A DNA stretch of 64,000 nt from Thunnus maccoyii (lineage: Eukaryota; Chordata; Actinopteri; Scombriformes; Scombridae), in assembly GCF_910596095.1 (NCBI RefSeq), contig NC_056546.1, positions 10,317,925-10,381,924 of the forward strand, read 5' to 3'. A model generated the notes under the pieces. It was not told the origin of the DNA. It saw nothing but the letters and a program-made list of their open reading frames with translations, and did not search any database. The position numbers were made by a program, and so were the translations under genes. This document shows, piece by piece, positions 31,501 to 34,500 of the stretch (within the stretch, counting starts at the first letter, position 1; every line of letters starts with the position of its first letter).

Positions 31501-34500
31501 ATAGAGAGAAGGCGATGACGTGCCACACAGGTCTCACATCTTTGACCACTGTACCAGGAAATACTGCATCCTGTGTTTACTTCACTCTGCACTATTCTCT
31601 TCCTTTGCCTTCCTTTCTTTTAAGTATGCCTTATCCTGAGCTATATAAGTTTAATCACAGTATAGCCGGTTAATTATAGGTGTTCTCTGCCAAATTGCAT
31701 GCAGTAAGTAGAGGCCTTTCTTATAAAAAACGCTTAATGTATGTTACCTATGAGGTATAATATCTGGGTGAGGCCTGGTATTACAGTAGTAATACTGCAG
31801 GATTACAACCATAAAGAGGGTGTCATTATAAAACGAGTGGCAGATGGGGTGACAAGCAACACCGTATGTGTATACTTGCTTGTTTGGGTTCAAATGTACA
31901 TGCGTGCCTATCAATGTTACTACATTTTAAGAAAAGTAGTGCTGGCATATGGATTTGCATTATGCAGGCACTCTGACCCCGTTACTGCTTAATCTGTGCA
32001 ATAAACACAAGCCCCACGTGGCCTTGTTTCAACATCTGGAGCTTAAAAAGGACCCCTGCTAGCACCCCAGCCAGGTCAGCGATGTTAATTAATAGGGACG
32101 CCCTCACACTTAAACCATACTCATGATACAACAGAGTGACTACATGTTGGTGTGGTTGGTAAATCCCTTTCCCTGGTGACCATGTCCACCCCCTACTGGC
32201 CTGTGATAAAACCCCACCACACTCAATTTCACAATATTCTGAAATGTGATTTCTGAGAGGAGAACGGTGTAGCAATTTTGTGTGTTGCAATGTCTGGTGT
32301 ATTTTTCTTCTTTCAGCAGAACTGTTCAAATGTGGACAATGGGACATCTCCACCCACATGTACGTTACACAGCACCGGGGTTGTAGAATCACAGTCACAG
32401 TACAACCAAAATCTGGAAATTTGTGCTGATATTGTGGCATTTTGAGTAAGTATTTAGTATATGAGATATTTTTCCATAGATTAAGAAAAAGGAATAGAGC
32501 CAATATCAAGTCTTAGTGGAGTTTTTGTGCTGTAATAGAATCCCTACTCTGTTATCTTAGCTTATTTTTGGATTACACAATCCTCATTATATATTTTAAA
32601 GAGAAAAGGTCGACAGATTTGTTTAATACAATGCAATCAGTCTGAATTTTGAGGGTTACTAACAATGCACAATGAATACTGAAAAACGCTCTTATAAAAT
32701 ATGAAACAGTGTCATGTTTCTTGTACCGCCACATTTCTCCTTTGTTCTGTCTCTCACCTCCTATCCTCTCCTCTGCTTTGTGAGTGTCCACAGGTTTAGC
32801 CGGTGGCTCTTTGGAGGAAGTGACCCCGTCTGTTGTTCTACTCTCCCCTGGCCTCAGGTTGCTTCCACTGGGGGACTTTAGTGTCTTTGTTGGGGTCTTA
32901 GTGGGAGACTTGCTTGTGGTTGTGGTGGTAGTGGTTTCACCGTTGGACGGCTTCTTGCTCAACTGGAGGCCACTAGTGAACTTTTCATGCTTGAGGGAGA
33001 TGAAGTGAAATGACAAAATAGATAGAAAAGAAATTTAAGTAATACAATTGCCTGCATGATCAACATTAATACTTGATAGTTTGTGTTGTAGTTGTGTTGT
33101 ATTTGTACATGTGTTTTTACCTTGAGAGCTTCCTCAGGCACAGTGAGCTCTCCTCTCACCACCGTGAACAGGTTGGTATGTGAGACAGACAGGTTAAGGA
33201 AACTCCAGCACAACTATGACACATAAATACATACTGTATACATGAAGATGCACGCAACATCTCCCTGCATAACATGCGTTTGGAGTGATGAACCCACCAG
33301 TGAACGGGTGAGGGCAGAGGTTAAAAGATCAGAAAAGGTGAAAGGATATCATAACCAAACCTCAGCTTATCCTCTAACTTCAGAGTGATGTACATCTGCT
33401 CCTGAATGCGGACATCATTTACAAAAGTCTGCATAGAGAGGACAGAGGCAAGACAAAAACCAAGATGGTCAATTAAATCACCTGTAACAATAAACAATAA
33501 CGTAAACACAAATTCTGCAACAGGCTATGTCTGTTTAACTGCAGTTTGTTATGTGTGAATGTGAACTTTGTTTATACTTCTAAGACGCTTCCCTGTAAGA
33601 AAATTTTGAAAGTAAAGGAAGATAACTTATCTTTAAATCAGTCTGCAGAGCCAGGACTTAAGGCCTAAGCATGATAATGCATGTCTTTCCCTCTGTTTCT
33701 CTCTTTTACTATTTTCTTTTCCATCTCCCTCTTTCTCCCACTCTTATCCTCCCCCCCCTCTACTATGCAGCTCTGAGATAGATCAGGTTTCACTGAACTG
33801 CTAATGAAATTCAATCACACTTGCACTGCTGTTGTAATAAAACATTCCTGTCTCCTCTCTAGTGAGATGAAATCACAGCGTAACAGCACAGCAATGAAAT
33901 GGCTCCAGTCAGATAGTTAACAGTGACACTGCCCAACTGCAGCTCTTTACTCACTGCTGTGTCAAACCTCTACATATCCACTGACTCAGCAGGAGAAAAC
34001 TTCCTCTGAATCCAGCCAAAGAAGCCGATGGTTAATGACACAGCAGGAAGTGGCTCTGACTCTAGCTTCCTGTGTAAGAGCTGGAGAGGATGTGAGGGAC
34101 ATTCTGCATATGTGTCTAATCTGGTGGGCTGTGACTGAGCTATAATCACTACACATGACTAACGCCATGTGGCAATTGTAAACGGCTTTTACTGAGCTAT
34201 AATGCCAAAGACAAGAAAGACAAAAGTGATCTAAAAACGTAGGAATACAGAGTTAATACGTGTTTCTCATGGTTATTAAACAAACTTACTTTTAAAATTG
34301 CAGATAAATGTTTGGCTTTATAATCAATTATGTTATGTACCATGAGTTAGTTTGTGATGTGACATGTTCAACACGCTCCAAATTCTTCTTATCTAGACCT
34401 ACACCTTATTTTTCAGAGAGCCCATTAAAACCTCATGTTATTGGTTGGATTTATCATCTGAAATTCAATTATTGGAATGATAATAATCTAATTTTCCAAT

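Follow-up and report, generated by a model that had tools for sequence, protein, structure and literature searches.

Evidence for a U12-type AT-AC intron in the FHA domain of Thunnus maccoyii cep170 and in its paralogues

Which spliceosome removes the intron that splits the FHA domain of cep170, a centrosome- and cilium-related gene, in Thunnus maccoyii, and how widely is that intron shared among the relatives of the gene? We addressed these questions for a window of 64,000 nt of contig NC_056546.1 (contig C14 below; positions 10,317,925 to 10,381,924) in the 782-Mb genome, in which the original prediction had placed an AT-AC intron of the minor-spliceosome class. U12-type introns are recognized at the 5' splice site by U11 and then by U6atac, and at the branch sequence by U12. 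The consensus of the 5' splice site is [A/G]TATCCTT, and the branch sequence is near TTCCTTAAC at about 10–15 nt from the 3' end of the intron.

Identification of cep170 and its AT-AC intron

The C14 copy of cep170 lies in this window, and its first four coding exons encode the FHA domain. The features of the gene and of the interrupted junction are as follows, all in window coordinates.

11266..39669, minus strand: cep170 coding region as modelled in 18 blocks, colinear with those of a paralogue on contig C2; its 3' end is inexact
39565..39669, minus strand: coding exon 1, ending in ELMLQ, with a GT donor
35138..35227, minus strand: coding exon 2, ending in GSLNG, with an AG acceptor and a GT donor
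33350..33428, minus strand: coding exon 3, 26 residues and the first base of an Asp codon
33180..33349, minus strand: intron assigned here to the U12-type AT-AC class, splitting the Asp codon of FGYD/TNLF in the FHA domain
33341..33349, minus strand: U12-type 5' splice site ATATCCTTT, of which ATATCCTT is identical in all four paralogous introns
33193..33201, minus strand: branch-point sequence TTCCTTAAC, a perfect motif with 8/8 pairing to U12 snRNA
33180..33181, minus strand: 3' splice site AC, found in all four paralogous introns
33121..33179, minus strand: coding exon 4, the last two bases of the Asp codon and 19 residues

The translation of exons 1–4 matched human CEP170 (PDB 4jon) over 111 residues with no gap (E=3.4e-65), and 102 of the 111 residues were identical, the alignment running ungapped across the exon 3/exon 4 junction. 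Pfam models identified the FHA domain (4.9e-16) and, in a later exon, CEP170_C (2.9e-105); the gene therefore combines the N-terminal FHA domain and the CEP170 C-terminal domain that together characterize the CEP170 family. Scanning the window with Rfam and for tRNA genes returned no match. A 251-aa open frame at 61433-62188 on the plus strand contains proline-rich stretches (KKRRAPPPPPDREPYAPP...) and is possibly an exon of an opposite-strand neighbour gene; it had no Pfam match at 0.01.

We read the DNA across the exon 3/exon 4 junction and located the intron at 33349..33180 on the minus strand, 170 nt long and in phase 1. The junction reads ...TTT GGT TAT G/ATATCCTTTC ... TTCCTTAAC CTGTCTGTCTCAC/AT ACC AAC CTG TTC, where slashes mark the splice sites, and the 3' terminus of the intron together with the start of exon 4 is TTCCTTAACCTGTCTGTCTCAC/AT ACC AAC CTG TTC. 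A U12 5' splice site is present as ATATCCTTT at 33349..33341, and the perfect TTCCTTAAC stands 13 nt before the intron end, or 14 nt when counted after its second A, which is the spacing that had been predicted. The branch A is probably 33195 or 33194. The predicted limits of the intron also proved exact, with the gene on the minus strand. Excising the intron rebuilds the conserved FHA peptide as FGYDTNLF, identical to human CEP170; the ungapped alignment of the spliced peptide to the FHA domain in PDB 4jon thus bore out the exact restoration that had been claimed.

Alternative splice solutions and chance expectation

For this junction we listed every in-frame, stop-free donor-acceptor pair, taking donors between -24 and +200 and acceptors between -200 and +24 relative to the block edges. 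Among the 13 solutions obtained (2 GT-AG, 2 GC-AG, 2 AT-AG and 7 AT-AC), the conserved peptide was produced by the AT-AC pair 33349/33180 only. Both GT-AG pairs take their GT donor from within exon 3; one drops 12 residues including FGYDTNLF and the other swaps RFGYD for foreign residues, and a wider enumeration range of 400 nt returned the same two pairs. The two GC-AG pairs likewise broke the conserved FHA peptide, which was broken or changed by the AT-AG and shifted AT-AC pairs as well, and all of these candidates were rejected for this reason. Each of the 16 other junctions modelled in cep170 had at least one in-frame GT-AG solution, which does not in itself prove that the solution is used; the E8/E9 junction among them is loosely fixed, with 117 solutions and room for another, hidden exon. 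The exon 3/exon 4 junction had been described as the only one among the five genes of the window without a GT-AG solution, and within cep170 this was so, 16 of the 17 modelled junctions being solvable.

We then compared the signals with a chance control based on order-1 Markov sampling (60 runs, both strands) rather than on shuffles. On both strands of the window, ATATCCTT alone was seen 3 times against 2.5 expected, TTCCTTAAC alone was seen twice in the window against 0.63 expected, and a loose U12-like pattern was seen 11 times against 11.1 expected, so that this last scan was uninformative. Single signals accordingly mean little by themselves, because their counts are close to the chance expectation. 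A strict joint pattern consisting of ATATCCTT, a perfect TTCCTTAAC, a spacing of 8–14 nt and AC, which was defined only after the intron had been seen, occurred once in the window, at the cep170 intron, and in 0 of the 60 simulations. When the donor position is fixed and a 12-nt band is allowed for the branch site, the joint probability comes to ~1.4e-9.

Paralogous introns in the same genome

Searching the genome at the protein level yielded six matches at four loci, all four of which were read; only the best candidates were scored, so the genome contains at least four copies. An AT-AC intron was found at the identical codon and in phase 1 at all four cep170-like loci, which lie on contigs C14, C2, C16 and C17, and every one of these introns starts with ATATCCTT and ends with AC.

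C14, 33349..33180 of the window: 170 nt, branch motif TTCCTTAAC, 13 nt to the end
C2, 30029710-30029915: 206 nt, branch motif TACCTTAAC, 9 nt to the end
C16, 19086848-19087466: 619 nt, branch motif TACTTTAAC, 11 nt to the end
C17, 537785-535723: 2,063 nt, branch motif GTTCTTAAC, 11 nt to the end

The four introns have TTAAC in common before the AC end, and the junction peptides are FGYD/TNLF in two copies, FGYD/AHVY in one and FGYD/SHVY in one. A relative without an intron at the FGYD codon had been named in the original prediction as the observation that would speak against it, and all three paralogues checked carried the intron. The conservation in four copies made the U12 assignment, until then a good guess, nearly certain. 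C17 is the least certain of the four copies, because the exon that follows its intron starts with AC, not AT.

Many gaps were needed to align the interiors of the C14 (170 nt) and C2 (206 nt) introns, while their ends were still alike. In the C17 intron, a 10-nt satellite with the unit ACACTAACAC on the plus strand (about 217 copies, 81% matches) makes up 1,987 of the 2,063 nt, or ~96% (L016:7979-9965, about 535768-537754 of contig C17), and the short unique flanks outside it, 31 nt on the 5' side and 45 nt on the 3' side, carry the splice signals. Diverged interiors with kept ends are the pattern that would be expected from selection on splice signals alone.

U12 snRNA of the genome

For U12 snRNA, one of the four minor-specific snRNAs, the genome search identified a full-length gene at C18:7765587-7765740 (L015:1501-1654), which had a score of 131 bits (gathering score 53) and was the sole family match among the 44 scored of 52,651 first-look candidates. 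The GTAAGGAA of this U12 pairs at 8/8 positions with TTCCTT(A)AC of the cep170 branch site, with one A bulged. Its pairing with the other three branch motifs was weaker, at 7/8 for one and 7/8 including one G-U for each of the other two.

Age of the intron and human CEP170

The FHA domains were identical at 102/111 residues within the C14/C2 pair and at 103/111 within the C16/C17 pair, against 81–87 of 111 between the two pairs. Human CEP170 was closest to the C14 copy (102 of 111), followed by C2 (97), C16 (89) and C17 (87). In a midpoint-rooted tree of these five short FHA sequences, human CEP170, C14 and C2 were placed apart from C16 and C17 with a support of 100/100. We take the C16 and C17 loci to be CEP170B, the tree itself showing only their separation from human CEP170, C14 and C2. 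Judged from these sequences, the common ancestor of the C14/C2 and C16/C17 pairs carried the AT-AC intron. Because human CEP170 groups with C14 and C2, the intron would be older than the fish-human split, in which case the human copies should have inherited it, barring loss or conversion; on the basis of the tree, human CEP170 copies probably carry the AT-AC intron by inheritance. The opposing possibility, that the intron is confined to teleosts or underwent loss or conversion in human ancestry, leaving human CEP170 without it, appears to us quite improbable. The intron is common to both pairs with human CEP170 inside that split, and an independent gain at the identical codon, in the same phase and of the same class is unlikely, although loss or conversion could still have occurred later.

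Discussion

Our results indicate that the cep170 FHA domain almost certainly contains a genuine U12-type AT-AC intron, which predates the CEP170/CEP170B duplication and has been kept in the four copies found. The U12 call of the original prediction is upheld by the three signals, the restored FHA domain, the failure of the GT-AG alternatives and the recurrence of the intron at all four loci found.

GT-AG introns are the majority, exon 3 itself offers a GT at 33360, and AG is present in both the intron and exon 4, all of which would favour a U2-type GT-AG junction with a merely coincidental AT-AC reading. However, only two GT-AG solutions in range keep the frame, each of them dropping or substituting conserved FHA residues, and AT-AC ends at the FGYD codon are common to the four paralogues, a four-fold conservation that makes a GT-AG junction so very unlikely that we give it practically no weight. 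A different objection accepts the AT-AC ends and assigns the intron to the rare ones spliced by the major (U2) spliceosome, of which 85 including related subtypes are counted in PMC8280824. Against this, ATATCCTT and a TTAAC-ending branch motif 9–13 nt from the end were found in 4/4 copies, and according to PMC3584512 what defines a U12 intron is its 5' splice site together with its branch sequence rather than its termini. Splicing of this intron by the major spliceosome is therefore highly improbable.

For the U12-type intron we infer that U11 and then U6atac would recognize ATATCCTTT, that U12 would pair with TTCCTTAAC with the branch A bulged, and that the minor spliceosome would join G to AT, by which the Asp codon of FGYDTNLF would be rebuilt. 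Intron retention or splicing failure would break the CEP170 FHA domain. Its phase 1 fits the bias of U12 introns against phase 0 described in PMC7367187, where it is also suggested that AT-AC introns have possibly been largely spared conversion to the U2 type. According to PMC8280824, CENATAC is needed for AT-AN minor introns, with 92% of A-type introns affected against 24% of G-type, and is reported at centrosomes as well. The cep170 intron is A-type, so dependence on this AT-AN-specific factor is expected and should hold. The density of minor introns is steadily high in vertebrates (PMC10639083), and human U12-type introns number several hundred, about 700–850 (PMC11684760 and PMC8280824); with hundreds of minor introns known, the cep170 intron in itself is unsurprising.

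The presence of the intron in all four copies found indicates that a core centrosome/cilium family probably depends on minor splicing in Thunnus maccoyii. In PMC13216214, ZCRB1 loss led to mis-spliced ciliary minor-intron genes and fewer cilia, the ciliary and centrosomal minor-intron genes named being IFT88, IFT74, IFT80, CEP41 and RABL2B. CEP170 had 0 occurrences in PMC3584512, PMC7367187, PMC8280824, PMC13216214 and PMC10639083; in PMC11684760, the one paper found to contain both CEP170 and the term 'minor intron' or 'minor spliceosome', its single occurrence was in the reference list. A literature search for CEP170, CEP170B or KIAA0470 as a minor-intron gene, covering the main text of the papers searched, returned no such naming; intron databases may already include human CEP170. 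The link between minor-spliceosome defects and ciliopathy through cep170 is a hypothesis that we offer as a reasonable prediction, and retention of the cep170 and cep170b introns provides testable targets for the microcephaly and ciliopathy-like disease seen in those defects. A far-reaching extension, which we put forward as speculation and consider rather unlikely, is that all CEP170/CEP170B copies have kept the AT-AC intron in the core of their FHA domain, neither losing it nor converting it to GT-AG, from a time before the vertebrate duplications. The family would then be constitutively dependent on CENATAC and U4atac, and FHA-truncating mis-splicing would contribute to the phenotypes that minor-spliceosome disease shows at centrosomes and cilia.

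Compared with known systems, the cep170 intron is like other AT-AC U12 introns in its ATATCCTTT 5' site, its TTCCTTAAC branch sequence near the 3' end, its AC terminus and its phase 1, and the modelled gene combines this one minor intron with major introns, as in that class. It shares AT-AC termini and U12 signals with the CENATAC-dependent AT-AN introns of PMC8280824, and a centrosome/cilium-related host gene with the ciliary minor-intron set of PMC13216214, although CEP170 is absent from the main text of the latter (0 occurrences). From known AT-AC U12 introns the cep170 intron differs in nothing of kind; in the paralogue on C17 the interior is almost wholly 10-nt satellite. In sum, it is a well-supported further case of the known U12 class and ordinary in kind.
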